From Okeania sp. SIO3B5 (GTDB taxonomy: Bacteria > Cyanobacteriota > Cyanobacteriia > Cyanobacteriales > Microcoleaceae): a stretch of 44,033 bases of DNA. Below are positions 17,603-41,898 of the stretch, one piece after another (within the stretch, counting starts at the first letter, position 1; every line of letters starts with the position of its first letter). The notes under the pieces are model-generated. The model had not been told where the DNA came from, did not search any database, and saw nothing but the letters and a program-made list of their open reading frames with translations. Made by a program: the position numbers and the translations under genes. The DNA lies in contig NZ_JAAHHG010000039.1 in NCBI RefSeq assembly GCF_010692555.1, positions 1 through 44,033 on the forward strand. The letters run 5' to 3'.

Positions 17603-19642
17603 CTACCAATTAAATTTGATACCCAAATATGCTTCTAAACGCTGATTATGAGGTTGAAAATAATCATTTAATTTTTGTCGAAGTGACTCACTAATAGAAG
17701 AATAAGAACCAGCATTTAATTTTGGATAGTCTGGTATTTGATAATCTGGCAAGCCTAGAAAGTCGAAAACTTGCTTCATGGTAGTTGCCGAGTCACGATA
17801 AAAGTCTTCACTTTTCAAAATTAGTAATTGTTCTCTAGGAAAAATAGCTAACCATTTCTTGAGGAATTCTACATATACGCCAGAAGCAATATAATCTCCT
17901 GCAAAATTCCAATAATTAGGATGAGAAATTTTGCTGAGTTTTTCAAGTTGAGAATTAATAGCTACTTCACAAGAACGAAATTCTTTATTTAAACGTACTT
18001 GATGATAGTAATGAGAAATTGCTCGATCGACAGGATTTCTCATAATGAGAATTAGTTTGGTTTTGGGAAAAAAATGAAAGATTCTACAGGGAGCATATTG
18101 AGCATCAAAATAGGTAATGCTTGCTTCTCCAGTTAAAAATTTTTTTGACTCTGAAATGGGAGGGAAATGTGCCCGATACCAATCTATACCTCTATGGAAA
18201 TTGAAAGACCAAAAATGTATTTCTTTTTTGATGGCAGGTAAGACTTGGGGATGTTTAGTTATATAGCTATAAAGAGAGGTGGTTCCTCCTTTGCCTACTC
18301 CAATAATTAGAAAGTTGGCTTCTGATAATTGTTCTGAATTCCAGTGTTGGTTAACAAAGGTGGGATGGGTTTTATAAATATAATTTTTAGAGGCTGTTTG
18401 ATAATATTTTATCGCTTCATTAATTCTGTCTACTTGAGTTAAAGCTTCTGCTAAGTTTAGGTAAGTGGAAACTGAATTATTTTGATTTTCAATAAGTTTC
18501 TGAAATAAATTTACTGTCTCCTCAAGTTTGCCTAATTTTTCAAAGGTTTCCCAGAGACGAGTATCAGACCACCAAGCAAAATCAGGATTAATTTCTATGG
18601 CACGATGGTAGGCAATAGAAGCTTCTAACCATTTTTGTTGTTGGGTTAAAGCTAATCCTAGATAATAGTAAGATTGACTATCTTGATTAGTTTCCACAGC
18701 AACATAATATGAGGTTAAATCTTGTTCTAGTTGAATTTTTTGCCGTAATATTTTCTCTAATTCCCGAAGGATATCTATTTGATATTTACTAGGGAATATT
18801 TCTCGCAACATATAATAGATAATGATGGCTCCAGAAATCTGATTTGCTTGTGCTAAAGCTGTGCCTAATTTTAGATATAGTTCTGGATTTTCTCTGATGA
18901 GATATAGTGCTGTTTGATAAATAGGATATTGGTCTGGATTTTTAATAGCTTGACAATAATAATTGATAGTTTCATCTAAATTTGATTGAGAAAGTTGGGC
19001 AAAAGCATCTCCTAACTGTAAGTGCATCCAAGGTAAATCTGGTCTAACTTGAGCAACCTCCAAATAAGTAGCGATCGCTTCATCTAATTTTTTTTGTTTA
19101 AGTAAAACATCTCCCAGACATTGGCGATACCAAACTACTTCTGGATTTAGTTTTATTGCTTGACGATATGCTATTTCTGCTGCTTCTAGTTTGCCAATTT
19201 GAAAAAGAATATCTGCTAATTTTTGATGAGTACCTTTAAGTTCTGGTTTGAGTTGAATTGCTGTTTGATAAGAAACAATGGCTTGCTCAAATTCCCCGAC
19301 ATTAACCAGTGCTTCTCCTAATTTATTGTAATCCCAATAACTATCAGGATTAATTTTAATAATTTGACGGTAAGCAACGACAGCTTCTGAGTATTTTTCT
19401 AGTTTAATTAGGGCATTTCCTAAGTTATGGTAAGACCAAGGAAAGTCAGGGTTTAGTTTGATGGCTTGACGGTAAGCTGTAATAGCTTCATCCCATTTTT
19501 GTAGTTTAGTCAAAGCTTGTCCTAATTTATAGTAAGACCAAGAAAAATTTGGGTTGAGCTTTATTGCTTGATGGTAGGCATTAACAGCTTTATCCCACTG
19601 TTGTTGTTCGAGAAATTTTTCTCCTAATTCGTAGTCATCCAT
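17603..19642 (-). CDS. TPR-sulfotransferase fusion (ST1)
   Basis: 679 residues, ATG start (MDDYELGEKF). Residues 1-420 are about 12 tetratricopeptide repeats with the consensus PDFPWSYHNLGNAL...AIxAYRQAIKLNP. Residues 443-679 form a carbohydrate-type sulfotransferase domain: KGGTTSL (451-457) is the PAPS 5'-phosphosulfate loop, KEIHFW (473-478) is shared with NDST/HS-type enzymes, and RNPVDRAISHYYH (535-547) is the 3'-phosphate site with Arg and Ser. It therefore should transfer sulfate from PAPS to a sugar hydroxyl or amine. No signal peptide, so it is cytoplasmic. It is the shortest of the four paralogues, lacking the N-terminal QKAExYLxQGK block. Eleven bases upstream of its ATG lies KLNWKT-stop, the end of a lost upstream paralogue. 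The last gene of the minus-strand series. Confidence 0.9.
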   Translation of the reverse strand: MDDYELGEKFLEQQQWDKAVNAYHQAIKLNPNFSWSYYKLGQALTKLQKWDEAITAYRQAIKLNPDFPWSYHNLGNALIKLEKYSEAVVAYRQIIKINPDSYWDYNKLGEALVNVGEFEQAIVSYQTAIQLKPELKGTHQKLADILFQIGKLEAAEIAYRQAIKLNPEVVWYRQCLGDVLLKQKKLDEAIATYLEVAQVRPDLPWMHLQLGDAFAQLSQSNLDETINYYCQAIKNPDQYPIYQTALYLIRENPELYLKLGTALAQANQISGAIIIYYMLREIFPSKYQIDILRELEKILRQKIQLEQDLTSYYVAVETNQDSQSYYYLGLALTQQQKWLEASIAYHRAIEINPDFAWWSDTRLWETFEKLGKLEETVNLFQKLIENQNNSVSTYLNLAEALTQVDRINEAIKYYQTASKNYIYKTHPTFVNQHWNSEQLSEANFLIIGVGKGGTTSLYSYITKHPQVLPAIKKEIHFWSFNFHRGIDWYRAHFPPISESKKFLTGEASITYFDAQYAPCRIFHFFPKTKLILIMRNPVDRAISHYYHQVRLNKEFRSCEVAINSQLEKLSKISHPNYWNFAGDYIASGVYVEFLKKWLAIFPREQLLILKSEDFYRDSATTMKQVFDFLGLPDYQIPDYPKLNAGSYSSISESLRQKLNDYFQPHNQRLEAYLGIKFNW

Positions 19643-19649
19643 CTCAAGT

Positions 19650-19862
19650 TTTCCAGTTAAGTTTCATCTATAAGCTTGATTCTAATTGAGGAATTTTAGT
19701 CATCTATATCTAGTTTCCTAGTTAAATTTCATATATTAAGTCTGATTCTAAGTTGTGAATTTCAGCTTGAGAGAAATATCTCAATTTTTGAGGCAGTAAT
19801 TTCCTGATAGGTGGATAAAGCCCTCCATTGAATTTCTGGCGATCGGGAATTTGATAGTGTGA
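19650..19862 (-). pseudogene. 3' fragment of a collapsed TPR-sulfotransferase gene
   Basis: Minus-strand reading gives HYQIPDRQKFNGGLYPPI, then LLPQKLRYFSQ, aligning with DYKIPDYKKLNLGSYPPI...LHQKLSNFFRP at the C-terminus of ST2. A second duplicated end (MKLNWKT-stop) lies just before ST1. The fragment stops abruptly at about 19862, where the tnpB element begins, and resumes at about 21296 beyond it. Confidence 0.7.
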
Positions 19863-21295
19863 AGTTCTCTCTCGTTAAATCAAAGATTATAACGGGAGCT
19901 TCTAAAACAGAGATAATTGAATCCAAGTTTCAGAAGTTTCTTGTCTCACAGGCTGACTACCGTCTAAGCCTCCACAAGCAGACAAGATGATACCCACCTC
20001 GTTTAATGCCTTATTTAATATGTTAATTGCTGCATTCTCGTCCCGATCTAAAACTACTTTACATTTAGGACAACAGTGAGTTCTAACTGACAAAGTTTTA
20101 GGTACTTTGTGGCCACAATTACTACAATTTTGTGATGTATTGTGAGGATTAACTTTAATCATAAGAACACCGCGTTTTACCGCCACTGCATTCAATTTTT
20201 CAATAAAAGCTCCCCAGGCTACATCATAAATTGATTTTGATAATTTGCTATTTCTAGCTAAACCTTTAATGTTCAGGTTTTCCACAGCAATTAACTCATA
20301 TTCTTTAACTAACTTATGAGCTGTTTTATAGTGGAAATCTTCTCTTTGTCTGGCAATATGTTGATGTAATTTAGCTATTTTATTTTGTGCTTTTTTCCAG
20401 TTGTTTGACCCAATTTTTTTTCTAGATACTTTTTTTTGCTTTCTTGCTAAATTAGATTGAGATTTTCTATAGAATTTAGGTACAGGAACAGTCTCTCCAG
20501 TATTAGTAGTCAAAAATTCTTTTAAGCCGACATCAATACCTACAGCAGTTTTAATATTTTCTGTAGGAATTAGACTAGGAATCGACTTATCTTCTAAACT
20601 GAAACTTACATAATAACCATCAGCTTTTTTAGTTATAGTTGCAGTTTTTATCGTCATACCGTCTGGAATAGCTCTATGAACTATGACTCTCATAGCACCA
20701 AACCTCGTAGTAATTATTTGTTTACCATCAAATTTAATTACTGCTTTAGGATGATTGACTCTACTGAAACAAAATGACCTTAACTTTCCTAATTTTTTAA
20801 ATCTTGGTCGTCCTCCACGCTTACCAGTTTGATCGGGTATTAACCAACGTTTCCAGGCTTTATCTAGTCTTTGTAAATTAATTTGCTGAACTTCGTATGG
20901 AGATTTCTTTGTAGTCAGGAAATAACTGTTTTGTCTGTTTAAGTGCTGATTGTTGAAAATAATAATCTGGCTTGCCAGAAATCTCACCAATAGGACATGA
21001 TACTATTGAGCATCGGTCTACTTGACATCTGGTTCTGTTTAACCAGTCCAAGCGTTGACCGAGGGCATAATTCCAATGCCTCCTTAGCAGCTCTAGCCAA
21101 TAATCAATTTTGGCTGACTGTCCAAGAGTAGGCTTGATTTTGTAGCAATGAGTAATTATCATAATTCTTATACTACTCTTTACTGCTATATTTGAAAATC
21201 AATCGACACCTCCACAAAGCAAGCTGTCGGCAATTCCCCTCCCGTTAAATCAGAGATTATAATGGGAGACCCCGAGACCGTATCTAGTTGGAAAT
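19863..21295 (-). mobile_element. IS200/IS605-type element with tnpB only (IS1341-like)
   Basis: Hairpins close both ends: CTCTCGTTA...TAACGGGAG (19869-19898) after the tnpB stop and CTCCCGTTA...TAATGGGAG (21239-21268) before its start, with loops AATCAAAGAT and AATCAGAGAT. There is no Y1 transposase (tnpA), so it would depend on one elsewhere. Precise ends are not fixed. The flanks TTTGATAGT and ACTATCAAA belong to a disrupted sulfotransferase sequence, which shows that the element inserted into that gene. Confidence 0.7.
19902..21162 (-). pseudogene. tnpB: RNA-guided nuclease TnpB, single frameshift
   Basis: ATG at 21162 opens MIITHCYKIKPTLGQSAK, the usual TnpB N-terminus, and continues to LFPDYK. 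One extra base near 20907 (AAAGAAA on the minus strand) throws it out of frame. The next frame carries on with KSPYEVQQINLQRLDKAWK to the stop at 19902. Joined length is about 421 residues, normal for TnpB. The catalytic parts are intact: GIDVGL (RuvC Asp), VENLNIKGL (Glu), zinc finger CSNCG...CPKC and DRDENAAINIL (last Asp). It is either a young pseudogene or restored by frameshifting. TnpB is an omega-RNA-guided DNA endonuclease favouring element retention. Confidence 0.88.
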
Positions 21296-21414
21296 TTGCT
21301 AAACTATCAAATTCAGAAAATCAAAGACTCGTTTCATTATAGTTGTGGGAGAAACTAATAACTTCACCCTACTGTTTTTATCGAAATTTTTCTCCTAACT
21401 TTTAATCATCCACC
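21296..21414 (-). pseudogene. Other fragments of the collapsed TPR-sulfotransferase gene
   Basis: At about 21300-21347 the minus strand reads PTTIMKRVFDFLNL, the segment preceding PNYKIPDY in ST2 (TSMMKRVFNFLNL), i.e. the part missing from the fragment at 19650-19862. At about 21378-21407, three bases after the ST2 stop, it reads VDD-stop-KLGEKF, a decayed copy of the ST1 start (MDDYELGEKF). So a whole gene once stood here. Its TPR part and most of its sulfotransferase domain were deleted, and the tnpB element split the rest. Confidence 0.65.
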
Positions 21415-23661
21415 TCAAATTTTCCAATTAAATTTTATACCTAAATATTCCTCTAATTTTTGATTATGAGGTCGAAAGAAATTGCTCAATTTTTGATGCA
21501 GTGATTTATTGATAGGGGGATAGGAACCTAAATTTAATTTCTTGTAGTCAGGAATTTTATAATTTGGCAAATTCAGAAAATTAAAGACTCGTTTCATCAT
21601 GCTTGTTGGAGTTCGATAAAATTCTTCTGTGGGTAAAATTAGAAATTGTTCTTGAGGAAATATTCTCATCCAATTATGGATAAAATCTATGTATATGCCA
21701 GTGCCTAAATAATATAATTCATGATGCCAATAACTACTGTCTAAGGGGGAATTTTTATAAATCATTTGCCAATTTTCTAATTCTTGATTTAATGCTGTTT
21801 CTAAAGGGCGATTTTCTCTATTTATCCTTCGCCAATGATAGTAGTGAGAAATAGCTCTATCTACAGGGTTTCTCAACATAATTATTAATTTGATTTTGGG
21901 AAAGTAATTGAATATTCTGTCTGGTGCTTCCCAATTTCCTAAGTAACTAGGACTTGCTTCTCCAGTGATTAAATTTTGATGGTTTGGAATGGCAGGAAAA
22001 TGAGAGAGATACCAATTTATTCCTTTGTCAAAGTTCATCGACCAAAAATTTATTTCTTTGACAACAGGGGATAAAATTTGAGGATGTTGGATGAGATAAC
22101 TAAATAAGGAGGTAGTTCCTCCTTTTCCTACTCCAATAATTAGAAAGTTAGGATTTTGAATGTCTGTCAAATTCCACTGTTTTTGGTAAAGGGAGGGGTA
22201 AGATTTTAAAGTTTGTTGGTAACAAGCAGTTTGGTAATAAATAATTGCTTCATCTATTTGATTCTGTTTTGTCAGAATTTCTCCGAGATTTATATAGGAC
22301 AAATATGAATCTGGATTTTGTTGAATAAACTGCCGATATAAATTGACTACTTCATCTAATTTTCCGCAGCTTTCTAAAGTGTTCCATAAATTATAATTTG
22401 ACCAGGATAATTCAGGGTTAAGTTCTACAGCGCGCAGATAAACAATAGCAGCTTCATCCCACTTTTGTTGTTGAATAAAAGCATCCCCTAAAAATTGATA
22501 AATTTCAGAAATATTAGGTTGAATAGAAAGAGCTTTTTGATAAGAGGCGATCGCTTCATCTAATCTTTGTTGTTTTACTAGAGTATTTCCTAGATAATTC
22601 CATAGCCAATAGTTATGAGGATTTTTTTCAATTTCTTGGCGGTAGATTTTTTCTGCTTTTTCCCATTTATCTTGTTTGAGAAACAAATTCCATAAACATA
22701 AATGAGGTCTATCTATTTCTGGATTAAGTTCTATTGCTTTTAAGTAACTGGTAATTGCTTGGTCTGATTTTCCTGTAGTTTCTAGAACATCTCCTAATGA
22801 ATTATAAGACCAATAATAGTTAGGATTAATTTCTATGGCACGACGGTATGTTGTTATGGCTTCTTCCCAATTTTCTAATTTTAGCAAAGTATCTCCTAAT
22901 GAGTTATGAGACCAATAAGAATTTGGATTAATTTTGATGGCTTGATGATATTTGACAATGGCTTCTGTTTCTCTTTGTTGTTTGAATAAAACTTCTCCTA
23001 AATTATGGTGAGCAAAGTAGATTTTTGGATTAATTTCAATTGCTTTTTGCAGAGTTGTCTCAGCTTGGTCTAATTTACTTAATGTAATTAAAGTTTCTCC
23101 TAATTTATTGTGAGACCAGTAGGAATTAGGATTAATTTTTATAGCTTTTTGGTAGGCAGTTACTGCTTCATGTAAATTATCTTGTTGAGTCAGTGCTTCT
23201 CCTAATTTTTCGTAAGATAAATAAAAATCCGGATTCAATTTAATCCCCTGTCTAAATGCTGTAGTTGCCAAATCCCATTTTGATAGTTGAATAAAGCTCT
23301 CTCCCAGTTTCTGATATGACCAAGAAAAATCAGGGTTAAGTTCTATAGCACGTTGATATGCGGTGACAGCTTTTTCCCACTGTTGAAGTTGCATTAAAGC
23401 TTCTCCTAATTTGTGATAAAACCAGGAAAAATTAGGATTAAGTTGAATGGCATTTTGGTAAATAGTAATAGCCTGTGAAAAATTTTCTTCTTGGAGGTAA
23501 ATATCTCCCAATTTTTGGTAAATTCCCCAATGTTCAGGTTGAAGTTCTATAATTTTTTCATAAGAAGCGATCGCTGATTCTATTTTGCCTTGGGATAAAT
23601 AATTTTCTGCCTGTTTTTGGTATTGCAATGCGATAGTTTGTAAGTCTGTGCTTGAAGACAT
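21415..23661 (-). CDS. TPR-sulfotransferase fusion (ST2)
   Basis: 748 residues, ATG start. N-terminal leader YQKQAENYLSQGK, then about 13 TPRs (to about 485). The sulfotransferase domain covers 505-748: KGGTTSL (513-519), KEINFW (535-540), RNPVDRAISHYYH (about 598-610). It is closest to ST1 (both GVGKGGTTSL and FWSxNF), forming one subtype distinct from ST3/ST4. C-terminal YLGIKFNWKI is the common family end. The stop is followed three bases later by the relic start of a lost paralogue, showing that these genes were once packed tail to head. Confidence 0.9.
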   Translation of the reverse strand: MSSSTDLQTIALQYQKQAENYLSQGKIESAIASYEKIIELQPEHWGIYQKLGDIYLQEENFSQAITIYQNAIQLNPNFSWFYHKLGEALMQLQQWEKAVTAYQRAIELNPDFSWSYQKLGESFIQLSKWDLATTAFRQGIKLNPDFYLSYEKLGEALTQQDNLHEAVTAYQKAIKINPNSYWSHNKLGETLITLSKLDQAETTLQKAIEINPKIYFAHHNLGEVLFKQQRETEAIVKYHQAIKINPNSYWSHNSLGDTLLKLENWEEAITTYRRAIEINPNYYWSYNSLGDVLETTGKSDQAITSYLKAIELNPEIDRPHLCLWNLFLKQDKWEKAEKIYRQEIEKNPHNYWLWNYLGNTLVKQQRLDEAIASYQKALSIQPNISEIYQFLGDAFIQQQKWDEAAIVYLRAVELNPELSWSNYNLWNTLESCGKLDEVVNLYRQFIQQNPDSYLSYINLGEILTKQNQIDEAIIYYQTACYQQTLKSYPSLYQKQWNLTDIQNPNFLIIGVGKGGTTSLFSYLIQHPQILSPVVKEINFWSMNFDKGINWYLSHFPAIPNHQNLITGEASPSYLGNWEAPDRIFNYFPKIKLIIMLRNPVDRAISHYYHWRRINRENRPLETALNQELENWQMIYKNSPLDSSYWHHELYYLGTGIYIDFIHNWMRIFPQEQFLILPTEEFYRTPTSMMKRVFNFLNLPNYKIPDYKKLNLGSYPPINKSLHQKLSNFFRPHNQKLEEYLGIKFNWKI

Positions 23662-23717
23662 ATTTGATTTATAGAGTAGTCAGAAGTTTGACATAATTGT
23701 AATATAGTAGTCCTATT

Positions 23718-24025: not shown

Positions 24026-24382
24026 TTTATAGCGGTTTTAATTAACATATAATCCAACTATTTCTATAACTTCTACTACCTTTAGAAATATCTATAATTT
24101 TTACTCTAGTCAATATGAGTGAAAACCTTTAGAATTGCGAACAAAATTCTAGTGTCGCTATGCGGAAGTTAAAAGTCAAAAGTTAAAAGTTAAAAGTATT
24201 GATTTGTAATTGTTTTAGGATTTTGTAACTGGCCATTTCAGTTATCAGTTAGCCTCCTCCGGAGGAACTGCGTTAACAGTTATCAGTACCTCTGCAATAA
24301 GGAGGCTTGAAATATAGAATATCCTCTTTTTTATCCCCTTAAAAGGGGAGGCTTTAGAGCAAATTTTTTCAGTAATAATTAA

Positions 24383-24862: not shown

Positions 24863-27013
24863 TTAATTCCAGTTAAATTTTATGCCAAGATACTCTTCTA
24901 ATTTTTGGTTATGAGGTTGAAAGAATTCAGAAAGTTGATGACGCAGACTAGCATTTATTGGAGGATAAGAACCAGGATAATAATTTTTATATTCTAAGAG
25001 TTGATAATTTGGTAAACCTAGAAAATCAAAAACTTGTTTGGTTGTTGCTTCAGGATTTTCATACATATCCTCGCTTTTCAATATTAAAAGTTGTTCTCTA
25101 GGAAATATATTCATCCATTCTTGAATAAAAGATAGATATAAACCTAAACCTAGATACCTCGTTTTTTTTCCTTGCAAAAGATTAGCATTGCCTTGAGATT
25201 GATTAATCATTTTTTGTAATATTTTTGTTTCGGCAGCAATTACTTCTGCAAAACTTCTTTGTTCTTGTCCTAGTCGTTTATCCATATAGTAGTGAGAAAC
25301 AGCTCGCTCTATAGGATTTCTTAATATAGCGATTAACTTAATTTTGGGAAAATAACTAAATAGTTTATTTGCTGCTTCTACAGAATACATATAGTTAGGA
25401 GTTGCTTCTCCTGTAACAAAATTTTGTTGTTCTGGAATTGCCGGAAACTGAGATAAATACCAATCAATTCCCTTGTGAAAGTTAGCATCAAAAAAGTGCA
25501 TCTCTTTTTCTACGGCGGGTAAAATTGATGGATGTTTAGTCAGATAAAAATAAAGAGATGAAGTACCCCCTTTAATTGTGCCAATAATGATAAAATTTGG
25601 TTTTCCTAATTCTGTAAAATTACCATATTTACTGATAAATTCTGGATGAGTTTTGGAGATTTTTATAGATAAAACTTTTTGATAATAACTGCTAGCTTCT
25701 TGAGCTTTACCTTGTTTGGTCAGAATATTAGCTAAATTCAAATAATGCCCATCAAATTCTGGCTTAATCTTCATAGCTTCTTGGTAACAGTTAATCAAAT
25801 TATCTAATTGCTTTTGATTTAATTTAACTAGCTGATAACTGTGAATAGATCTGAGTTTATTATAAGCAAGGAAAAAATCAGGTTGCAATTCAATAGCTTT
25901 AATATAATAAGCGATCGCTTCCTCTGAATTCCCTTTTTCTAAAAGAGCATCTCCTAAATCTTTATTAACCCAAGGTAAATCTGATTTAAAATCTCTGGCT
26001 TTTTGATAATAAGTAATCGCTTCATCTATGAATCCTTGTTTGTGCATTACATAACCTAACTGATAATAATACCAGTAAGCATTAGCATTTATTTCCAGGG
26101 CACTTTTATAAACTATCGCCACTTCATCCCATTTTTTTATTTTGAGTAATACTTCCCATAAATTATGATAGTACCAATAATTATCAGGGTTAATATCTAT
26201 AGATTTTTGATAGGCAACAATAGCCTCATCCCATCTTTTTAATTTAGTTAAAGCTTTCCCTAAATTTTGATGATAATTTGATACTTTGTGGTTGAGTTTA
26301 ATCGCATTTTCGTAAGCAATTACAGCTTTATCCCATTGTTTTAGTTCTAGTAAAGCATTACCTAAATTGTTATATAAATCGCTAGAGTTAGGATTATTTT
26401 CAATGGCACGTTGATAAGTATGTACGGCTTCATTCCACTGTTTGAGTTGCATCAATGCTTCTGCAAGTTTGTGATATGACCAAGGAAAATCTGGTTTTAA
26501 TTCTATGAATTTATGATAACTATGTACAGCTTCATTCCACTGTTTGAGTTGCATCAAAGCTTCTGCAAGTTTGTGATAAGACCAAGGAAAATCTGGTTTT
26601 AATTCTACGACTTTACGGAAAGCATTAGTAGCTTCATCCCACTGTTTGAGCTGCATCAATGCCGTACCTAATTTTTGGTAAGACCAGGGAAAATCTGGAT
26701 GAAATTTTATAGCGTTGCGGTAACTTACTATTGCTAAATTCCACTGTTTTTTTTGAGAATATAGATTGCCTAAATTTAAATGAGCTTGACTAAAATTGGG
26801 ATTAATTACAATGGCTTTTTGATAATATTCTTGAGCTAACTCCTGGTTGTCCATTGCTTCGACTATTCTGCCTTTTGTGTTACAAACTAAGGCTAAATCT
26901 TCTAGTTTTTTGAGGGCTTCATTACAGATTTTATCGGCCTGATTTAATTTTCCTTGAGCTAAGTAGGATTCTGCTTTTTGGTTTAAATCTACTACTGATA
27001 TTTTTTGGTTCAC
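24863..27013 (-). CDS. TPR-sulfotransferase fusion (ST3)
   Basis: 716 residues, GTG start. The position is supported because NQKISVVDLNQKAESYLAQGK aligns with the ATG-started N-terminus of ST4 (NHQIFVLDLHQESESY). About 12 TPRs (to about 455) include two consecutive repeats whose 102-bp coding units are nearly identical (about 26418-26622). The sulfotransferase domain is 473-716: KGGTSSL (481-487), KEMHFF, RNPIERAVSHYY (about 569-580), and SEDMYENPEATTKQVFDFLG near the C-terminus. KGGTSSL and FF define the second subtype, with ST4. Some TPRs are irregular around residues 385-415. Probably cytoplasmic; the acceptor is unknown. Confidence 0.9.
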   Translation of the reverse strand: MNQKISVVDLNQKAESYLAQGKLNQADKICNEALKKLEDLALVCNTKGRIVEAMDNQELAQEYYQKAIVINPNFSQAHLNLGNLYSQKKQWNLAIVSYRNAIKFHPDFPWSYQKLGTALMQLKQWDEATNAFRKVVELKPDFPWSYHKLAEALMQLKQWNEAVHSYHKFIELKPDFPWSYHKLAEALMQLKQWNEAVHTYQRAIENNPNSSDLYNNLGNALLELKQWDKAVIAYENAIKLNHKVSNYHQNLGKALTKLKRWDEAIVAYQKSIDINPDNYWYYHNLWEVLLKIKKWDEVAIVYKSALEINANAYWYYYQLGYVMHKQGFIDEAITYYQKARDFKSDLPWVNKDLGDALLEKGNSEEAIAYYIKAIELQPDFFLAYNKLRSIHSYQLVKLNQKQLDNLINCYQEAMKIKPEFDGHYLNLANILTKQGKAQEASSYYQKVLSIKISKTHPEFISKYGNFTELGKPNFIIIGTIKGGTSSLYFYLTKHPSILPAVEKEMHFFDANFHKGIDWYLSQFPAIPEQQNFVTGEATPNYMYSVEAANKLFSYFPKIKLIAILRNPIERAVSHYYMDKRLGQEQRSFAEVIAAETKILQKMINQSQGNANLLQGKKTRYLGLGLYLSFIQEWMNIFPREQLLILKSEDMYENPEATTKQVFDFLGLPNYQLLEYKNYYPGSYPPINASLRHQLSEFFQPHNQKLEEYLGIKFNWN

Positions 27014-29378: not shown

Positions 29379-29383
29379 ATCTA

Positions 29384-29670
29384 ATACCAATTTGATAAAT
29401 GTTTGCTACAAATAATTTTCTAGGTGTTAGGTTTTAGGTTTTAGGTGGTAGGTTTTAGGTTTTAGGTGTTAGGTTTTAGGTGGTAGGTGCTAGGTTTTAG
29501 GTGGATTATTGGTAAAAATCCTCTTATGAGCAAGGAGAAACAAGAAAAAATTTTCATCCTTTGTCAATCCTATCCGTTTTCTTTCCAGAGGTAGTTATTA
29601 ATTATTAATTATTAATTATTAATTTTTGAATAGCCAGTTTATTTGTAACATTCTTTTTTCAAAATGGTAT
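29384..29670. mobile_element. MITE, ATACCAATTTG family, copy 2
   Basis: Begins ATACCAATTTGATAAATG and ends ATTCTTTTTTCAAAATGGTAT. About 90 bp of TTTTAGG-type repeats and TTAATTA heptamers make it longer than other copies. It starts five bases upstream of the deacetylase ATG, so it supplies that gene's immediate 5' region. Confidence 0.65.
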
Positions 29671-33533: not shown

Positions 33534-33671
33534 ATCTAAGTGGGTGCATCTCATATTTGCAAAAATACTTTTTTCCTATATATTCCCTATTCCCTATTTC
33601 CTATTCCCTATTGCCTGTTGCCTGTTGCCTAAAAGCGGCTTTATTAAAAATTTAGATGCACCCATCTAAGT
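33534..33671. mobile_element. MITE, GGGTGCATCTCA family with 8-bp TSD, copy 3
   Basis: The element is 33542-33663 (GGGTGCATCTCA ... TTAGATGCACCC). Exact 8-bp duplication ATCTAAGT at 33534-33541 and 33664-33671. The right duplication contains the TAG stop codon of the GT61 fusion, so the element landed exactly at the end of that gene without altering the protein. Interior CCCTATT and GCCTGTT heptamers. Confidence 0.85.
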
Positions 33672-36419
33672 TAACTCAACTTCTGCTAATTTCAGAATTT
33701 TTCGTAGCTTCTTTATATCCACAATAATATCTGGTGTCCATGATGGTTTACCTGAGTTGTCATCCTCAAACTTTTCACCTATTAAATAGTAATGTGAAAG
33801 ATGGCAGAAACTACTAATCTTCCAATATATAGCATTAATATATTTGGGAGAAAAGATTTCAATTACTTTAGTTCCTAAACTACAAAAAACTAAGTTTGTT
33901 AGCCCAGCACCATGAGGTGCTACAATGACTTTAACTTTTGCCATCAATGCAGCTTGCTCTACTACAGAAAATGATTCTAGAGTTAAGCTAGTAAAACCAA
34001 ACTTTTCCAATAAACTGACTACTTCATCCTCATTCAAAATTCTGCGCCATGAGGCTAATTTTCTACTAATAAATATTCGTTCTGGCGACTCTGATAATTT
34101 CCTGATATTCTCCGACTTTAAAAATAGATTCCTGATAAATTCACAACCCCATTTAGAAACTCTGATGCTACCTTGTTTATTTGTGAATGATGGTACTATT
34201 AATTTGTTCGCTTTTATATGAGGGATAAATCTACTTTCAATAATTTTTTCTTGAGGAATTTCTAGTGCTTCTAGTGTTTCTTTATGAAATTTTTTATCGC
34301 ACTTGCTAAATACAAATTTATCTATCTTCGATATCCAGCCACTTCGGCGTAATAAATCCATTCTGACAACTACATCAAACATCCAATGATAATATATATT
34401 TCCTCCCCATTTTGCAGATAAAAATGCTACCGTACCATTTATATAATGAATGGCAGGTAATTCGACGGAGGATAAAATTGTCTCTGCACAACCTGTGGAA
34501 ATATCTCCGACTAACTTATTGTCTGAAGTAATAACTGCACTTGTGCCTAAATCAACACAACCTCTTCCTTCTGGAACTATAGCAACAAATGCTGTACCTG
34601 AGTTCACTTTTGTAGCTCGGAAACGGTGATGTACATTTTCATCTATTGTTTGAGTTGGCAATAGATTTACTTCAGTATTTGAATAGATATTTATCCGAGT
34701 AATATCTGTTTTTGTCGAGTCTGAATTAACTTCCCAATCTCCTGTTAAATTGAAAAACTTTTTTAGCCAATCTTCTGGTAATTTTTCTTGAGTTATCCAC
34801 AATTTACCTGCTGCTTGGCGACCTTGTTTTTTGAGGATATATCCTATTTTTTTATGAACATCATAATAATTTGGTCTTATTTTCAAAGCTTTGATTAAAC
34901 ATGGTATGGCTTCAGACCAATTCTGCTGTTGAATATAGGCATTTCCTAATGCTCCATAATGCCAACAAGATTTGGGATTAATTTCGATTGCTTTTTGGTA
35001 GGAAGCGATGGCTTCATCTAATAAACCTTTTTGTTGTAAAACATCTCCCAATTTTCTGTGAAATAAATTATTATTTGTTTCTAATTGAATGGCACGATTA
35101 TAAGCTATTATTGCTTCATCCCATCGTTTAGTTTTTTCTAGTGCTGTACCGCAGCTATAGTTTAACCAAGAAAAGTTTGGATTAATTTCGATTGCTTTTT
35201 GGTAAGAAGCGATGGCTTCATTTAATAAACCTTTTTGTTGTAAAACATCTCCCAATTTTCTGTGAAATAAATTATTATCTGGCTCTAGCTCTATGGCACT
35301 ACGGTAAGTAATAATTGCTTCATCCCACTCTTGAAGTTTTGCTAATATTTCTCCTAACTTGCGGTACCATTTTATTTGTTTTGGTTCTATTTCTATTAAC
35401 TTCCGATAACAATTGATAGCTTGAGTATCCTGACTTAATTTTTGTAGATTATCTGCTAATTTAGAATAAGACCAAGTTAAATTTGGATTTATTTTTACTA
35501 TCTGTTGACATAAGTTGATGGCGGTTTTTAATTTTCCTTGTTGTTCTAGAATATTGGTTAATTTGCGGTAGATGTTCCAGGCATCATATTTAAGTTCTAT
35601 CGCCTTTTGATAATATTTTTCTGCTGCATTTAATTCTCCTTTTTTTTGTATAATATCCCCTAAATTATTATAAGACCAAGGAAAATTTGGATTAATTTCC
35701 GTAGTTAGGTGAAAGTTATTAATTGCAGCATCTATATCTCCTATTTCTTGAAAAAATTTCCCTAGTTTATGCCGAACTAAGTACAGTTCTGGTTTCAGTT
35801 CAACTGCTTTTTGATAATAATTTATTGCTTCAGTTAACTTTCCTTGTTTAGCAACAGCATCGCCTAATTTTTGATAACCATTTGCCAAAGATGGATTGAA
35901 TTTTATAGCTTGCTGGAAAGAAGCGATCGCTGATTCTATTTCCCCATTTTCTAGCAAACTTTTCCCCTGTTTTAAATATTCTGATGCTTGAGGATATTCA
36001 GCTTCTAAATTTAATGCTTTTTCCTGACAAACTCTTGCTAATTCTATTTTTCCTATTTGTTGCCAGATTTTTCCTAAGTTCCGATAAAAACCTGGTACAT
36101 TTGGTTTGATTCCGATGGCTTCTTGGTAAGATTTTATTGCTAATTGCCATTGTTGTTTTTGGGCATATAAGCTGCCCAAATTTGCATGAACTTCTGCCCA
36201 TTCTGGCTGTTGATTTATTGCTTTGAGATACCATTCTTTTGCTTTGTCTATTTCACCCATTTTGTGGAAAATATTTCCCAATGTTTTATAGATAGGTAGA
36301 AAATCTGGCATTATTTCTAATGCTTGGTTACAAGCTAATATTGCCTCTTCTAATTTTCCTTGAGTTAAATATAATTCTGCTTTTTGAGATAAATTTGTTA
36401 GATTTATTTGTTTGTTCAT
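33666..36419 (-). CDS. TPR-GT61 glycosyltransferase fusion
   Basis: 917 residues from the ATG at 36419 (MNKQINLTNLSQKAELYLTQGK), chosen because it aligns with the starts of ST3/ST4; an ATG five codons upstream (36434) is also open. About 15 TPRs to residue 540. Residues about 575-917 are a GT61 (DUF563, EOGT/xylosyltransferase-like) domain: SAKWGGNIYYHWMFDVVVRMDLL (about 668-690), ISRKLASWRRILNE, and APHGAGLTNLVFCSLGTKVIEIF with the family's HGAGLTN signature. GT61 enzymes add xylose, arabinose, GlcNAc or related sugars to protein or polysaccharide. Two TPR-coding stretches about 204 bp apart (34979-35078 and 35183-35282) are nearly identical. No signal peptide. A decayed duplicate follows upstream. 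Confidence 0.9.
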   Translation of the reverse strand: MNKQINLTNLSQKAELYLTQGKLEEAILACNQALEIMPDFLPIYKTLGNIFHKMGEIDKAKEWYLKAINQQPEWAEVHANLGSLYAQKQQWQLAIKSYQEAIGIKPNVPGFYRNLGKIWQQIGKIELARVCQEKALNLEAEYPQASEYLKQGKSLLENGEIESAIASFQQAIKFNPSLANGYQKLGDAVAKQGKLTEAINYYQKAVELKPELYLVRHKLGKFFQEIGDIDAAINNFHLTTEINPNFPWSYNNLGDIIQKKGELNAAEKYYQKAIELKYDAWNIYRKLTNILEQQGKLKTAINLCQQIVKINPNLTWSYSKLADNLQKLSQDTQAINCYRKLIEIEPKQIKWYRKLGEILAKLQEWDEAIITYRSAIELEPDNNLFHRKLGDVLQQKGLLNEAIASYQKAIEINPNFSWLNYSCGTALEKTKRWDEAIIAYNRAIQLETNNNLFHRKLGDVLQQKGLLDEAIASYQKAIEINPKSCWHYGALGNAYIQQQNWSEAIPCLIKALKIRPNYYDVHKKIGYILKKQGRQAAGKLWITQEKLPEDWLKKFFNLTGDWEVNSDSTKTDITRINIYSNTEVNLLPTQTIDENVHHRFRATKVNSGTAFVAIVPEGRGCVDLGTSAVITSDNKLVGDISTGCAETILSSVELPAIHYINGTVAFLSAKWGGNIYYHWMFDVVVRMDLLRRSGWISKIDKFVFSKCDKKFHKETLEALEIPQEKIIESRFIPHIKANKLIVPSFTNKQGSIRVSKWGCEFIRNLFLKSENIRKLSESPERIFISRKLASWRRILNEDEVVSLLEKFGFTSLTLESFSVVEQAALMAKVKVIVAPHGAGLTNLVFCSLGTKVIEIFSPKYINAIYWKISSFCHLSHYYLIGEKFEDDNSGKPSWTPDIIVDIKKLRKILKLAEVELT

Positions 36420-36681
36420 TTTGAGCTGAGTCATTTCAGTTATCAGTTATCAGTTATCAGTTATCAGTTAACAGTACCTCCTCCAATAGGGAAGCAAGAA
36501 AATACTGAATTTTATTTTTGTTTATCCTCTTTAAAGGGGAGACTTGAAACCTAATTTTTTGGTCCTATAGCAAAGAACAAGTTAGTTAGGACTGCTGATG
36601 ATGAACTTGAGTCAGAGAAATGCTTTTTCTACTGTTCCCTGTTCCCTGTTCCCTGTTCCCTGTTCCCTGTTCCCTGCAATA
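36420..36681. repeat. Heptamer-rich spacer between the two GT61 copies
   Basis: CAGTTAT heptamers (about 36436-36470), a CCTCCAATAGGGAAGC...TTTAAAGGGGAG dispersed repeat (36477-36545), and six CCCTGTT heptamers (about 36634-36675) directly after the downstream gene end. No gene. Confidence 0.5.
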
Positions 36682-37647
36682 CTAAATTACTTTTGCTAAT
36701 TCCATGATTTTTAATAGCTGTTTTAAATTGACAATTATATCTGGTGCCCATAACTGTTTTTCTAAATTATCATTATCACAAAAATCCCCTAATAAATAAT
36801 AATGTGAAAGACTACAAAAATTACTAATCCGCCAATATAAAGAATTAACATACTTGGGAGAAAAAATTTCAATTACTTTAGTTCCTGGACTACAAAATAC
36901 GATGTTTGTTAATCCAGCTCCATGAGGTGCAATAACAACTTTAGCAGCAGCCATATATGATGCTTGTTCTGCTATTGACATTGATTCTAAGGTTAGACTA
37001 ACAAAGCCAAATTTCTCTAACAAATTCACAACTTCCTCCTCATTAAGAACTCTACGCCATGATGCTAGCTTTCTACTAAGATATATACGTTTTGGCCGAT
37101 GAGATACTTCATTAATATTTTGAGGTTTCAAAAATAAATTTCTGAGAAACTCACAACTCCATTTATTCACCCATATTCCTCTTTGTTTAGCCGAACATGA
37201 AGGCACTATTAATTGTTTGGCTTTTATGTGAGGATATAATCTACTTTCGATTATTTTATCTTGGGAAATTCCCAATGCTTCTAAACTTTCTTTCTGAATT
37301 TTTTTTTCGCAACTACTAAAAATAAACTTATCTATCTTAATATCTGTTCGGCGTAATAAATCTATCCGTGCCACTACATCAAACATCCAGTGAAAATAAT
37401 TTTTTTCTCCCCACTTTGCTGACAAAAAAGCTACATTTTCATTTATGTAGTAAAAGCGTCTAATTTTTTTTTCTTCTAGAATTTAACCTAGTTTTTTGTA
37501 AGGCAAAGGATAATTTGGATTGATTTCTATAGCAAGCTTAAATTCTATAATAAATAGCTGTATCTAACTCTCCTATTTCTTGAAATACTTTTCCTAGTTT
37601 ACGATGAGCTATAAACAAGTCTGGTTTCTTTTCTATTGCTTGATTTC

Positions 37648-37775
37648 ATTAATGGATAATGGATAATTACCTCTGGTTAAAACCGTTACGGAATTGAATA
37701 TAAGGAAATATTATTTCTTTTTTCCCCTTAAAAGGGGAGGCTTCAAGGCGCGAATTATTTAATTATTAATTATTA
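37648..37775. mobile_element. Dispersed repeat inserted in the GT61 pseudogene, copy 1
   Basis: Starts CATTAATGGATAATGG and runs through CTCTGGTTAAAACCGTTACG, GAATATAAGGAAATATTATT and CCTTAAAAGGGGAGGCTT to ATTAATTATT heptamers. It is nearly identical to the copy at 38068-38222, and both interrupt reading that otherwise matches the intact paralogue. Confidence 0.6.
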
Positions 37776-38067
37776 GGTGAGTCTTTTTTTCAACTAAAGC
37801 ATCCCCTAATTTTTGATAGGTATTTGCCAAAGATGGGTTGAATTTTATGGCTTGATGGAAATGAGTTATCGCTGATTTATTTCCCAATTTTCTAGCAAAC
37901 TTTTTCCCTGTTTCAAATATTCTGAGGCTTGAGGATATTCAGCTTCTAAACTTAATCCTTATTTGTGACAATCTCTAACTAATTCTATTTTTCCTATTTG
38001 TTGCCAGATTTTCCTAAGTGCCGAGAAAAACCTAGTAAATTTGGTTTTATACTGATGGTTCCTTGTT

Positions 38068-38222
38068 CATTAATTGATAATTTATAATGGATAATGGATA
38101 ATTACCTCTGGTTAAAACCGTTACGGAATTGAATATAAGGAAATATTATTTCTTTTTTTTTCCTTAAAAGGGTCAGTTTTAAACCAGAATTATTTAATTA
38201 TTAATTATTAATTATTAATTAT
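38068..38222. mobile_element. Dispersed repeat inserted in the GT61 pseudogene, copy 2
   Basis: Same core as 37648-37775 with a longer TTAATTA heptamer tail (about 38190-38222). The pseudogene resumes right after it with TTGGTAAGATTTTATTGCTAA, matching position 36125 onward of the paralogue. Confidence 0.6.
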
Positions 38223-38463
38223 TTGGTAAGATTTTATTGCTAATTGTCACTGTTGTTTTTAGGTATATAAGCTGCCCAAATTTGCATGAACTTCTGCCCA
38301 GTGTGGCTGTTGATTTATTCCTTTGAAATACCATTCTTTTGCTTTGTCTATTTCACCTATTTTGTGAAAAATATTTCCTAATTTCTAAGCATTTCCTGCG
38401 GAATGCTGCTCAAACAGCGGTCAGCGGTCAGCTATCAGCTTTATGACAAAAAAATGAGGTCTA

Positions 38464-38655
38464 ATACCAAATTAATAAATGTTTGCTACAAATAGTTAGG
38501 GTATTTATTCTAATTTATAATTTATAATTCAGAATGCAGAATGGATAGATTTAATGCTATTTTTGATGTTTAAAATTACCTTTTTCGTGAAATTTACTTT
38601 ATATAAAAGTATTTTTATGGTGCTTATTATTCATAACATTCTTTTTTTAAATTGC
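38464..38655. mobile_element. MITE, ATACCAATTTG family, copy 5 (right end degenerate)
   Basis: ATACCAAATTAATAAATG at the left, ATTCTTTTTTTAAATTGCT at the right. The interior matches copy 3 (TTAGGGTATTTATTC, TTTAAAATTACCTTTTTCG). It lies between the GT61 pseudogene and the divergent GT2 gene. Confidence 0.6.
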
Positions 38656-38979
38656 TCTAAAGCCTCCCCTTTTAAGGAGATGAAAAAATATTTAGTTCAG
38701 TATTTCAAGCTTCCAGCTTTAGTCGGAAGTACTGATAACTGATAACTGATAACTGAAATGACCTTTAGTGGACAATTTAAGTTCGTTGTTCTTGTGTTTC
38801 AATTTGCTGATAATAGGGATAGGGTGTAAGCTTATTTAGTATCAAATATCTTTAGTAACCGGATTTACTATAAATAGGATTTTAATCACTAAATCCCTAA
38901 AAGTGAAAAATATCTTTGCTTTTTCATTTTCTAGGAAATAGCAAAACAAAAGTAGCTAAATTAAAAATATATAACTATC
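38656..38979. other. Intergenic region before the triple-GT2 gene
   Basis: It contains a CCTCCCCTTTTAAGG dispersed repeat and GATAACT heptamers (about 38730-38757). The remaining 220 bp, A+T-rich, should hold the promoter, but no convincing -10/-35 pair could be assigned by eye. Confidence 0.35.
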
Positions 38980-41898
38980 ATGTCCCAAGCTTTTCTAACT
39001 CCAAAAGTAAGTATAATTATCCCAGTATATAATTGCGAACTTTACATCGCCCAAGCAATAGAAAGTGTATTTAAACAAACCTATACTAACTATGAAATTA
39101 TTGTTATAGACGACGGTTCCACAGATAATATCCGTCAAGTATTACAACCATACATGACAAAAATTCGCTATTTTTATCAAGAGAATAAAGGATTATCTGC
39201 AACTCGTAACCGTGGCATTAAATTGGCAAAAGGAGAATTAATTGCTCTCCTTGATGCTGACGATCTATTTCTCTCTTATAAACTGACAGAACAAGTTGCT
39301 ATTTTTGATGCTCAATCAAATATTGGTTTAGTACAAAGTGGGTGGCGAGTTGTAAATGAAAAAGGAGAAAAAATTCAAGATATTGAACCTTGGTATAAAT
39401 CTCCAGAATTAGATTTAGTAAGTTGGTTAAAATGGAAAACTACTAATCCTAGTGGGATGATGTTTCGCAAAGAATGGTTAGAAAAAGTAGGTGGGTTTAA
39501 TGAAAAATTACGCAGATTAGAAGATTTTGATATTGTCATTCGATTAGCTTTAGCAGGTTGCCAAGCCGCTTGGTTTCCTAAAGTAGCTGTATGTTATCGT
39601 CAACATAGCAGTAATATGACGCGCAATTTACTTGCTCAAACAGCAGTAGAAGAAAAAATTTTAGATGAACTTTTTTCTAACCCCAATCTTCCTCCAAAAA
39701 TTCAACAACTAGAAAAGGAGTTACGCTACGGTTCCCTAATTTGGAATTGTTGGTGTTTATATAAGTCTAGCTACTTTGCTGAAATGGCTGATTATTTATA
39801 TAAATCTTTAAAATTTTCCTCTTTTTCCGTTCTTAAAACTATCTGTAATTGGCTCTATTATTTTCAATATTATGCTGCTCTAGAAAACTATGATTTTAAT
39901 TCTGTATTTTTCCATCAATTACCAGAATGGCAAAAATTAATAACTCAAGTAATTCCTAATGGTTTACCACTGGTTAGCATTGTAATTCCTACCTACAATA
40001 ATGCCAATTATATTCTTACAGCTATTAAAAGTATCCTGGCTCAAACTTATACTATTTATGAAATTATTGTTGTTGATGATGGTTCTACCGATAATACTTA
40101 TCAAGTTTTGGAACCCTACCTCAATCAAATTAAATATGTATATCAAGAAAATCAAGGACCATCAAAAGCGCGGAATCATGGCATAGAAATAGCTCAGGGA
40201 GAATATATTGCCTTTCTGGATGCCGATGACTTTTTTCTACCCGAAAAATTAGCCGAACAAGTAGGATGTTTTGCAGAAGATTCTACTTTAACTATGGTGC
40301 AAAGTGGTTGGAGATTTGTTGATGAAAAAGGTCATACTATTAAAGATGTAAAACCTTGGGAAAATGGTGCAGAATTAGACTTAGAAAATTGGTTAATCTG
40401 GCAAGCAACTTTGCCCAGTGCAATGATGTTTAGAAGTGAGTGGTTAAAGCTTAATGGTGGGTTTGACCAAAGATATTTTGGTATTGAGGATTTAGAAATA
40501 GTTTTGCGCTTAGGTTTATCCGGGAAAAAAGCTACTTGGTTACCGAGAGTTTCTGTCTGTTATCGACAGCGTAATAGTAGTGTTTCTGGATTAGAAAATC
40601 GACAAAAAATCACTCAAGAATTGGAAAAATTATTAGATGATTTTTTTAGAAAACCTAATTTACCTGCCTCAATACGTCAAATAGAAAATCAAGTAAAATA
40701 TCGCTCCTTACTTTGGAATTCTTGGCGCTTATATCAGGCAGGTAACTTTTCCGAAATGGCTGCTTATTTGCAGAAATCTTTAACTTATACTTCCGCTTCT
40801 ACTACAGAAGCAATTTATACTTGGATAGAATTATTTAGCAAACTTGCTCGTCAAGAAGGAAATCAATTTAATGCCTATAATTTTAGTCAATTACCAGAGT
40901 GGAAAAAATTAATTAGTAATATTTTTAATCCCGTAGTACCGAGAGTCAGCGTAATTATTGCCACTTATAATAATGCCCACTATATATTAGAAGCGATCGC
41001 CAGCGTTTTTAATCAGACTTATACCTCTTATGAAATAATCGTAATTGATGATGGTTCTACAGATAATACCCGCGAAGTTTTAGAACCTTATTTAGATAAA
41101 ATTCGCTATATTTATCAAGAAAATAAAGGAGTATCCCACGCCCGAAATTTAGGTTTAGAAATGGCAGGGGGAGAATTTATTGCTTTTCTAGATGCTGATG
41201 ACTTTTTTCTACCAGATAAACTAGCAAAACAAGTAGCTCTTTTTGATACTCGTCCTTCTCTTGGTATCGTGCATAGTGGTTGGCGTTTAGTTAATGAAAA
41301 AGGGGATAAAATTTCTGATATAGAATTATGGCATGGTTCCCTAGAATTAGATTTAGAAACTTGGGTAGTTTGGAAACCTGTAACTATCTCTATGATGTTT
41401 CGTAAAAGTTGGATAAAAAGTGCAGGAGGTTTTGATACTCGTTGGCATCATGGAGAAGATATAGATTTAGTATTGCGTTTATCTGTAAATGGTTGTGAGG
41501 CAGTTTGGTTGGCAAAAGTTACTTATTGTTATCGTCAACATCATCGGAATGCTACTAGAAAATCTACTCATCAAGCTGTCAGTATGATGTCTGTTTTAGA
41601 TAACTTTTTTAACAGACCAAATTTATCAACATCTATTCGTAAATTAGAGGGAAAATCTCGTTATTATACTTTGAGTTGGTTAGCATGGCAGGCACATCGA
41701 AATGAGGATTTAGTTGAAATGAGTAAATATCTACGACAAGCTGTAAAATATACTCCTTTATCTATGACAGAAACTATTTATCATTGGATTGATAGTTTTA
41801 ATAGTCTTTATCAACAATATGGTTATGAATTTGATGCTTATGATTTAACAAATTCGGATATTTGGCAACAGTTAATGTCAGATATTTTTGTGAAATAA
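38980..41898 (+). CDS. Triple-domain GT2 family glycosyltransferase
   Basis: 972 residues comprising three tandem copies of a complete GT-A glycosyltransferase of about 320 residues each. Domains start at about residue 10 (VSIIIPVYNCELYI), 331 (VSIVIPTYNNANYI) and 654 (VSVIIATYNNAHYI). Each has IIVxDDGSTDN (nucleotide site), ALLDADD or AFLDADD (DxD metal site), SGWRxVxEKG, and an ED motif (LEDFDIVIRL, IEDLEIVLRL, GEDIDLVLRL) followed by VxxCYRQ. The middle copy has LE in place of FD after ED. All three look catalytically competent. Each is followed by a helical tail with W-x-Y/LYxxxxFxEM. No transmembrane segment. Inferred role: assembling an oligosaccharide with repeated or multiple linkages, upstream of the sulfation/deacetylation genes. 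Divergent from the TPR cluster. Confidence 0.92.
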   Translation: MSQAFLTPKVSIIIPVYNCELYIAQAIESVFKQTYTNYEIIVIDDGSTDNIRQVLQPYMTKIRYFYQENKGLSATRNRGIKLAKGELIALLDADDLFLSYKLTEQVAIFDAQSNIGLVQSGWRVVNEKGEKIQDIEPWYKSPELDLVSWLKWKTTNPSGMMFRKEWLEKVGGFNEKLRRLEDFDIVIRLALAGCQAAWFPKVAVCYRQHSSNMTRNLLAQTAVEEKILDELFSNPNLPPKIQQLEKELRYGSLIWNCWCLYKSSYFAEMADYLYKSLKFSSFSVLKTICNWLYYFQYYAALENYDFNSVFFHQLPEWQKLITQVIPNGLPLVSIVIPTYNNANYILTAIKSILAQTYTIYEIIVVDDGSTDNTYQVLEPYLNQIKYVYQENQGPSKARNHGIEIAQGEYIAFLDADDFFLPEKLAEQVGCFAEDSTLTMVQSGWRFVDEKGHTIKDVKPWENGAELDLENWLIWQATLPSAMMFRSEWLKLNGGFDQRYFGIEDLEIVLRLGLSGKKATWLPRVSVCYRQRNSSVSGLENRQKITQELEKLLDDFFRKPNLPASIRQIENQVKYRSLLWNSWRLYQAGNFSEMAAYLQKSLTYTSASTTEAIYTWIELFSKLARQEGNQFNAYNFSQLPEWKKLISNIFNPVVPRVSVIIATYNNAHYILEAIASVFNQTYTSYEIIVIDDGSTDNTREVLEPYLDKIRYIYQENKGVSHARNLGLEMAGGEFIAFLDADDFFLPDKLAKQVALFDTRPSLGIVHSGWRLVNEKGDKISDIELWHGSLELDLETWVVWKPVTISMMFRKSWIKSAGGFDTRWHHGEDIDLVLRLSVNGCEAVWLAKVTYCYRQHHRNATRKSTHQAVSMMSVLDNFFNRPNLSTSIRKLEGKSRYYTLSWLAWQAHRNEDLVEMSKYLRQAVKYTPLSMTETIYHWIDSFNSLYQQYGYEFDAYDLTNSDIWQQLMSDIFVK

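Follow-up and report, generated by a model that had tools for sequence, protein, structure and literature searches.

What holds together a row of genes whose products share one kind of tetratricopeptide repeat (TPR) array and end in different carbohydrate enzymes, and on what do these enzymes act? The question is raised by a 44,033-nt contig of the cyanobacterium Okeania sp. SIO3B5 (NZ_JAAHHG010000039.1, contig C323 of an 11.06 Mb genome in 789 contigs; "the window" denotes this whole stretch). Between positions 17603 and 36434, six long, intact minus-strand frames encode TPR proteins ending in a sulfotransferase (ST; four genes), a CE4/NodB deacetylase or a GT61 glycosyltransferase. A first-pass annotation had seen here a TPR-scaffolded assembly with interchangeable catalytic modules that makes a surface glycan. 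Two findings are new: catalytic ends have been exchanged between TPR genes, and one TPR-GT61 subfamily has as its neighbor a gene for an RTX protein, a calcium binder of a type known from cell surfaces. We tentatively favor, at a little under an even chance, the reading that TPR-guided cytoplasmic enzymes add sugar to an exported acceptor, deacetylate it and sulfate it; a plausible acceptor is an RTX glycoprotein of the kind of oscillin. The genes in question are the following.

17603-19642, minus strand: ST679, TPR (~11 units) and a predicted heparan-sulfate-type sulfotransferase (PF00685); orthologues in relatives and at four other Okeania loci
19902-20990, minus strand: TnpB (RNA-guided endonuclease), interrupting the row between ST679 and ST748
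21415-23661, minus strand: ST748, TPR (14) and Sulfotransfer_1 (PF00685); orthologues in relatives
24863-27013, minus strand: ST716, TPR (12) and Sulfotransfer_1 (PF00685); same sulfotransferase clade as ST783
27531-29390, minus strand: CE4 gene, TPR (11-12) and Polysacc_deac_1 (CE4/NodB deacetylase; E 6e-28)
30761-33112, minus strand: ST783, TPR (15) and Sulfotransfer_1 (PF00685); a chimera by DNA comparison
33666-36434, minus strand: TPR (15) and GT61 glycosyltransferase (PF04577; E 6e-29)
36682-38381, minus strand: degraded second TPR-GT61; GT61 tail in the open reading frame (ORF) 36682-37425, broken TPR pieces upstream
38980-41898, plus strand: divergent triple-GT2 gene (GT2x3; PF00535 in three stretches)

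All six fusions lie where the first-pass annotation had placed them, and Pfam bears out their catalytic domains (PF00685 at E 4e-21 to 2e-16 across the four sulfotransferases) as well as the divergent triple-GT2 gene. Its account of the row was incomplete in that it overlooked TnpB and the degraded second TPR-GT61 gene, a seventh ORF whose TPR remnants reach ~38381. A shortened TPR-GT61 gene adjoining a TPR fragment is likewise found in a SIO2C9-type relative (L142:16143-18589).

The sulfotransferase ends are, judged by their solved relatives, of the carbohydrate, heparan-sulfate type. Their profile matches heparan sulfate 3-O-sulfotransferase 5 (3-OST-5, 3BD9; E 3e-35), N-deacetylase/N-sulfotransferase 1 (NDST1, 1NST; 6e-29), 1T8T and 3RNL, an entry named only Sulfotransferase, whereas small-molecule sulfotransferases match far worse (7e-5 or poorer), in keeping with the annotation's view that these enzymes act on carbohydrates. 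Four alignment columns, K27, E50, R111 and S119, are invariant in all four window proteins; we take them to be residues for catalysis and for binding of 3'-phosphoadenosine-5'-phosphosulfate. Matches to the domain at E <= 1e-20 occur in 60 of the 61 family genomes, many of the listed frames being 500-944 aa long, and the domain of ST679 is 95-97% identical to its counterparts in Okeania SIO2C9, SIO1I7, SIO2B3 and O. hirsuta. One locus (L023; G000:C734:8000-27000) holds several free-standing sulfotransferases and an unfused GT61 without TPRs. For the GT61 end, the solved matches are EOGT and POMGNT2, both enzymes of protein O-glycans, and are weak (E 0.006-0.011).

TYDDGP, HSFSH, RPPF and LMHD form the motif set of metal-dependent CE4/NodB deacetylases, and all four are intact in the window CE4 sequence when aligned to its best solved relative, the peptidoglycan N-acetylglucosamine (GlcNAc) deacetylase PgdA (2C1G). 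The CE4 domain has its closest relatives among free-standing deacetylases (~240-290 aa) from a single other genus of the family, 49-54% identical where intact; identity to the remaining two CE4 proteins encoded in the same genome is 32-38%. No TPR-CE4 frame was present in 71 named loci gathered via the sulfotransferase domain. Among the matches listed from the 61 family genomes, only that of the window has a frame above 383 aa, and of nine CE4 matches at E <= 1e-45 in 386 genomes of the phylum the eight others have frames of 243-283 aa; these searches cover one CE4 subfamily, and more distant ones may have TPR fusions of their own. We therefore rejected CE4 as a conserved member of the system, the fusion having been found in this genome alone among those searched. 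It appears that a duplicated TPR leader has captured this deacetylase recently.

The TPR parts comprise 11-15 units per protein, counted with a home-made profile. Their best natural solved match is human O-GlcNAc transferase (OGT, 1W3B; E 2e-54). AlphaFold2 rendered the CE4 protein as a continuous 12-repeat superhelix over residues 3-417 (predicted local distance difference test, pLDDT, mostly >90) and ST748 as 14 repeats followed by an alpha/beta domain (mean pLDDT 85); the CE4 domain itself was left unmodelled, probably because the alignment placed ST domains at that region. By hydropathy, none of the six proteins shows an obvious signal peptide or membrane-spanning segment (best 19-residue value <= 1.39; no dedicated predictor was run). 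On these sequences and models, the fusions are probably soluble TPR superhelices of the cytoplasm.

The annotation's shared repeat type stands as far as the arrays go, while its single common leader does not. In a tree of the first 150 residues, GT61 leaders fall on one side of a branch (support 100/100), those of ST748 and ST679 form a clade (100/99), and ST783, CE4, ST716 and ST902 leave one unresolved node. The PWSY signature is a TPR variant that has Trp at position 2 of the repeat; it accounts for 52% of window units and is not exclusive to this locus, making up 18% of the other TPR-GT61/ST units and 33% of the other TPR units in the genome, and 32% and 65% of units in TPR-GT61 and TPR-ST proteins, respectively, of eight other genomes. 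These shares are biased, the profile having been built from window units. An aromatic ladder in the TPR groove is suggested, and only suggested, by residue counts. Nor are such fusions confined to the window, an idea that we rejected: TPR-enzyme fusions are a genome-wide theme. A second cluster on contig C279 has a TPR-ST, a TPR-GT61, a TPR fragment with a GT61 and, at 34 kb, another TPR-ST; several other contigs encode TPR-GT61 proteins, and TPRs are fused to other enzyme domains across the genome (read by eye from protein tails rather than by Pfam). In C279-type clusters of Okeania and Trichodesmium (L071, L072, L074, L076, L078-L081, L083, L084, L086), a TPR-only protein of 448-471 aa is encoded next to the TPR-sulfotransferases, possibly an enzyme-free adapter.

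How different enzymes came to stand behind related leaders can be read from the DNA. Four other Okeania genomes carry the order GT61, ST902 (849 aa in one), ST748, ST679; in the window it is GT61, ST783, CE4, ST716, ST748, ST679. In the ST-domain tree, ST783 and the Trichodesmium erythraeum protein ST887 are a pair (100/99) whose sister is ST716 (100/100); ST902 stands apart. The leader tree places ST887 inside the GT61 class (100/100), and ST783, CE4 and ST902 across that branch. Over nt 61-480, ST783 is 81-92% identical to ST902, in register, and 59-64% to ST887; from nt 781 onwards the relation reverses, with 80-92% identity to ST887 and 42-67% to ST902, so that the crossover zone falls within the TPR array. 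At the level of DNA identity, ST783 is chimeric, its leader being of the Okeania ST902 type and its body of the Trichodesmium ST887 type. The CE4 gene carries the same leader as ST783 (79-91% identical to ST902 over nt 121-600). A further mosaic occurs in Microcoleaceae MO_207.B10, where the gene adjoining TPR-GT61 joins a GT61-type leader, 69-82% identical to that neighbor over the first ~900 nt, to a GT10 fucosyltransferase end; TPR-methyltransferases occupy such rows in Moorena, Tychonema and one Pleurocapsales genome. Because leaders are joined to different ends in the ST783, CE4 and GT10 mosaics, the catalytic modules are interchangeable, as the annotation had supposed, and these alignments make recombination within the TPR repeats the evident route of their exchange.

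The window genome may be a metagenome assembly. An assembly error is nonetheless an unlikely source of the ST783 mosaic: ST891 of MO_207.B10 matches ST783 at 73-90% identity all the way from ~nt 720 (ST891 numbering) to the end, across both TPR and ST parts, and the junction zone has divergence of its own. Between ST716 (24866-25651) and ST783 (30764-31549), the last 300 nt of the ST domain are 77-88% identical and the remainder 46-74%, which looks like local gene conversion.

Rather than being scattered singly through related genomes, GT61 and sulfotransferase fusions keep company. The 71 named loci, some of which overlap so that a few genes are counted twice, hold 102 TPR-ST and 57 TPR-GT61 ORFs. 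Eight near-complete genomes together hold 40 GT61 genes, of which 17 have a PF00685 gene no more than 10 kb away; 5000 rotations of positions averaged 0.78 such genes and never exceeded 7 (contigs other than C1 set at arbitrary offsets). The loci are not independent, since the eight genomes span just four genera. A TPR-GT61 gene followed by a TPR-ST gene, directly or with one or two genes between, is found in Okeania, Trichodesmium, Microcoleus, Kamptonema, Tychonema, Laspinema and Moorena. Co-clustering of GT61 and sulfotransferase genes thus exceeds chance, a point that the annotation had proposed to check for all three fusion types; the CE4 fusion occurs in this genome alone among those searched.

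The recurrent neighbor of homologous TPR-GT61 genes that is no enzyme is an RTX gene, recognized by two or three copies of a home-made motif (GGxGxDx plus a hydrophobic residue) and confirmed by Pfam HemolysinCabind in both proteins checked. Of the 71 named loci, many of them too short in flank to judge, 18 have it next to a TPR-GT61 gene (downstream in two Moorena loci, upstream in the rest). On contig C374 of the Okeania sp. SIO3B5 genome a small RTX gene adjoins TPR-GT61, and in two Trichodesmium loci an RTX gene lies 3-4 kb from a TPR-ST. In the eight near-complete genomes, 31 TPR-GT61 genes have enough flank to judge; an RTX gene on the same strand immediately precedes 9 of them, compared with 0/9 unfused GT61 genes (Fisher p 0.07) and 1/169 genes of random regions (p 1.5e-7). 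When loci were chosen purely by homology to the C374 GT61, an RTX gene was found 66-1720 bp upstream in 13 of 13 evaluable cases, from Okeania, the genus of T. erythraeum and one further genus of the family; L225 and L227, and L242 from outside the family, end at a contig edge and are uncounted. Outside the family, where 20 of 24 matches were taken (omitting G121, G159, G330 and G283, with frames of 401-623 aa), RTX genes adjoin close homologues (at least 51% identity) in eight of nine evaluable loci from five families, one of them downstream and probably the Moorena locus L118 again, as opposed to none of ten distant homologues (40-44%). The association therefore belongs to one TPR-GT61 subfamily, matched at 51% identity or more in 21 of 386 genomes among the matches listed. 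The signal is weak for whole regions, and clear for direct same-strand neighbors and for this subfamily; the locus sets overlap, so counts from different sets are not to be summed. The linked RTX genes encode 174-441 aa. Another type of RTX-linked GT61 is encoded by very long frames, ~1700-2360 aa (L018, L231-L235), and in L018, which has no upstream sequence, GT61 precedes the TPRs. Loci L243-L245 (genus g12, family f2) show an edge-cut sulfotransferase ORF on the opposite strand beside the RTX/TPR-GT61 pair.

In Microcoleus, these elements form an operon-like row: RTX, a TPR-GT61 of the RTX-linked subfamily, a TPR-GT61 of a second type, and TPR-ST. In M. vaginatus (L103), all four are on one strand, with a 277 bp gap after RTX and abutting or overlapping genes thereafter. 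To judge by trees and gene order, the window looks like the last two parts of this operon, detached and expanded, and like the half that split off, because the RTX gene and first GT61 sit on C374.

The superhelix of OGT TPRs holds peptides, and RTX proteins fold only upon meeting calcium outside the cell. In the mechanism that we propose, the TPR superhelix would, as in OGT, grip a long extended acceptor before export, GT61 would add sugar, CE4 would remove N-acetyl groups and the heparan-sulfate-type STs would sulfate, reactions predicted from families whose presence is established. Cytoplasmic action on an extended pre-export polypeptide would account for soluble enzymes accompanied by no flippase or polymerase genes. 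The acceptor would most likely be an unfolded RTX-type surface protein, a proposal made because RTX genes adjoin homologous TPR-GT61 genes; after type I secretion it would become an oscillin-like anionic glycoprotein, and the window set, we infer, still serves such a protein. Crossovers inside the TPR arrays, by joining leaders to new ends, could vary the modification pattern between species. RTX proteins do exit via type I secretion, and two of those on cyanobacterial surfaces, oscillin and SwmA, are described as glycosylated (PMC3034196).

Several observations weigh against an RTX acceptor. By motif search there is no RTX gene in the window or on C279; none lies directly upstream of a TPR-ST gene with enough flank (0/10 in the eight genomes, 0/5 in the own genome), and in the own genome one of five TPR-GT61 genes with enough flank has one there. 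RTX genes are common, any RTX ORF being present in 11 of 34 GT61 regions and 6 of 39 random ones (40 drawn, one omitted for overlap with a test locus), and L239 is a close TPR-GT61 locus without one. The p values overstate independence because many linked loci are orthologous and some are present twice. The window GT61 is 46% identical to the RTX-linked C374 GT61 and groups weakly (90/76) with the second GT61 of the operons; ST679 and ST748 share a 100/97 clade with operon STs that is broad (24 rows), and ST716 and ST783 are weakly placed. The TPR resemblance to OGT is generic, and designed TPR proteins outscore it. The support consists of architectures, co-clustering, mosaicism and RTX adjacency, with binding, activity and sulfation predicted from them, and multi-GT2 genes beside TPR-ST loci fit ordinary polysaccharide synthesis.

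This last point leads to the chief competing explanation, quite possible if short of probable: a cytoplasmic TPR-linked assembly that makes a polysaccharide or lipid-linked glycan and also deacetylates and sulfates it, with export machinery encoded elsewhere. Sulfated polysaccharide is established for a cyanobacterium in the case of synechan (PMC8205485), and carbohydrate-type sulfotransferases, a CE4 nearest to a peptidoglycan GlcNAc deacetylase, and GT10 and methyltransferase TPR fusions in homologous rows would all suit such a product; it stays a strong contender because multi-GT2 genes recur next to TPR-ST/GT61 loci of relatives, as in the window, and because the window has no RTX gene. 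Yet none of the 18 window ORFs of at least 120 aa matches the Wzx/Wzy families, as the annotation had observed (the contig stops at 44 kb, and the search did not extend to the rest of the genome), or is an ABC export gene, and what recurs beside homologous TPR-GT61 genes is an RTX gene. Of the annotation's surface glycan, the carbohydrate type of the sulfotransferases is borne out; the recurrent RTX neighbor of one TPR-GT61 subfamily argues for a protein acceptor no less than for free polysaccharide. That the row is instead a loose collection, locally duplicated, of fusions acting on unrelated acceptors (lipids, small molecules, different proteins) is improbable. TPR fusions to other enzymes are indeed scattered across the genome, and duplication and recombination have given genes leaders in common, but GT61-ST adjacency in several genera far exceeds rotation controls, and duplication by itself would not set different enzymes side by side. 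Least credible, and very improbable, is a decaying array of little function: the degraded TPR-GT61, the TnpB insertion and many simple repeats speak of decay, against which stand six long intact frames, the four residues invariant in all STs, and ST679 and ST748 orthologues retained in four other Okeania loci.

The proposed modification of an exported acceptor by TPR-guided enzymes has partial parallels in described systems. OGT (GT41) is likewise a long TPR superhelix fused to a glycosyltransferase, but is one protein, whereas the window has several single-enzyme proteins ending in GT61, CE4 or sulfotransferase; among the best 25 Pfam families per protein, PF00685, PF01522 and PF04577, and no GT41 domain, follow the window TPRs. 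NDST pairs deacetylation with N-sulfation. Its ST domain and that of the heparan sulfate 3-O-sulfotransferases are homologous to those of the window, where a deacetylase also adjoins the STs; in NDST both activities reside in one polypeptide, in the window CE4 and ST are on separate genes, and the window proteins differ from the heparan sulfate enzymes in being bacterial, TPR-fused and, as predicted, soluble. HMW1C-type and serine-rich-repeat adhesin glycosylation take place in the cytoplasm, and we know of no sulfation or deacetylation in either. In both, soluble bacterial enzymes glycosylate adhesins (PMC10507012, PMC5063993), though with enzyme families other than those of the window. The synechan (xss) locus of Synechocystis 6803, which makes a sulfated surface glycan (PMC8205485), also combines sulfotransferases with glycosyltransferases (in the window, four PF00685 genes with GT61 and GT2); unlike the 18 window ORFs, it has Wzx/Wzy/PCP genes, and neither TPR nor tetratricopeptide occurs in the main text of that paper. 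Oscillin and SwmA are akin through the RTX genes that adjoin homologous TPR-GT61 genes, although oscillin, at 646 aa (PMC3034196), is larger than the linked RTX proteins, which are candidate glycoproteins encoded outside the window. In PMC10811720, RTX, glycosyltransferase and TPR genes appear in separate contexts. No description of a TPR fusion to GT61, CE4 or sulfotransferase was found in the open-access literature, most subscription papers lying outside that scope.

To our knowledge, no enzymes have been described that attach oscillin-type glycans, and the operon of RTX, two TPR-GT61 genes and TPR-sulfotransferase supplies candidates testable by gene removal. Glycosylated RTX proteins such as oscillin are linked to the gliding of filamentous cyanobacteria (PMC3034196). 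In the window, exchange of catalytic ends among repeat-protein holders, visible at the DNA level, offers a natural route to varied surface chemistry, and exchangeable TPR-enzyme ends might perhaps serve as a toolkit for producing sulfated glycans. A wider generalization, which we regard as unlikely though worth stating, is that cyanobacteria sulfate and glycosylate secreted RTX surface proteins in the cytoplasm with recombining TPR-guided enzymes (GT61, GT10, methyltransferase, CE4, heparan-type sulfotransferase), yielding proteoglycan-like coats. If true, TPR-guided RTX glycosylation and sulfation would be a bacterial route to such coats, and the capture of a deacetylase beside heparan-type sulfotransferases would mean that the sequence of N-deacetylation and then N-sulfation may have evolved separately from that of animals.

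Elsewhere in the window, a GmrSD_N gene adjoins a HEPN_MAE_28990 gene (3419-5259), resembling a defence pair. Within 13231-16170, Pfam matches nothing in an ORF of 616 aa that has relatives in three Okeania loci; after it comes a short ORF with the NACHT C-terminal domain NCH2. Tandem arrays lie at 12473-12788 (63 bp, 5.1 copies, 96% matches) and 3148-3286 (28 bp, 5.0 copies), and several heptamer repeats occupy intergenic stretches.

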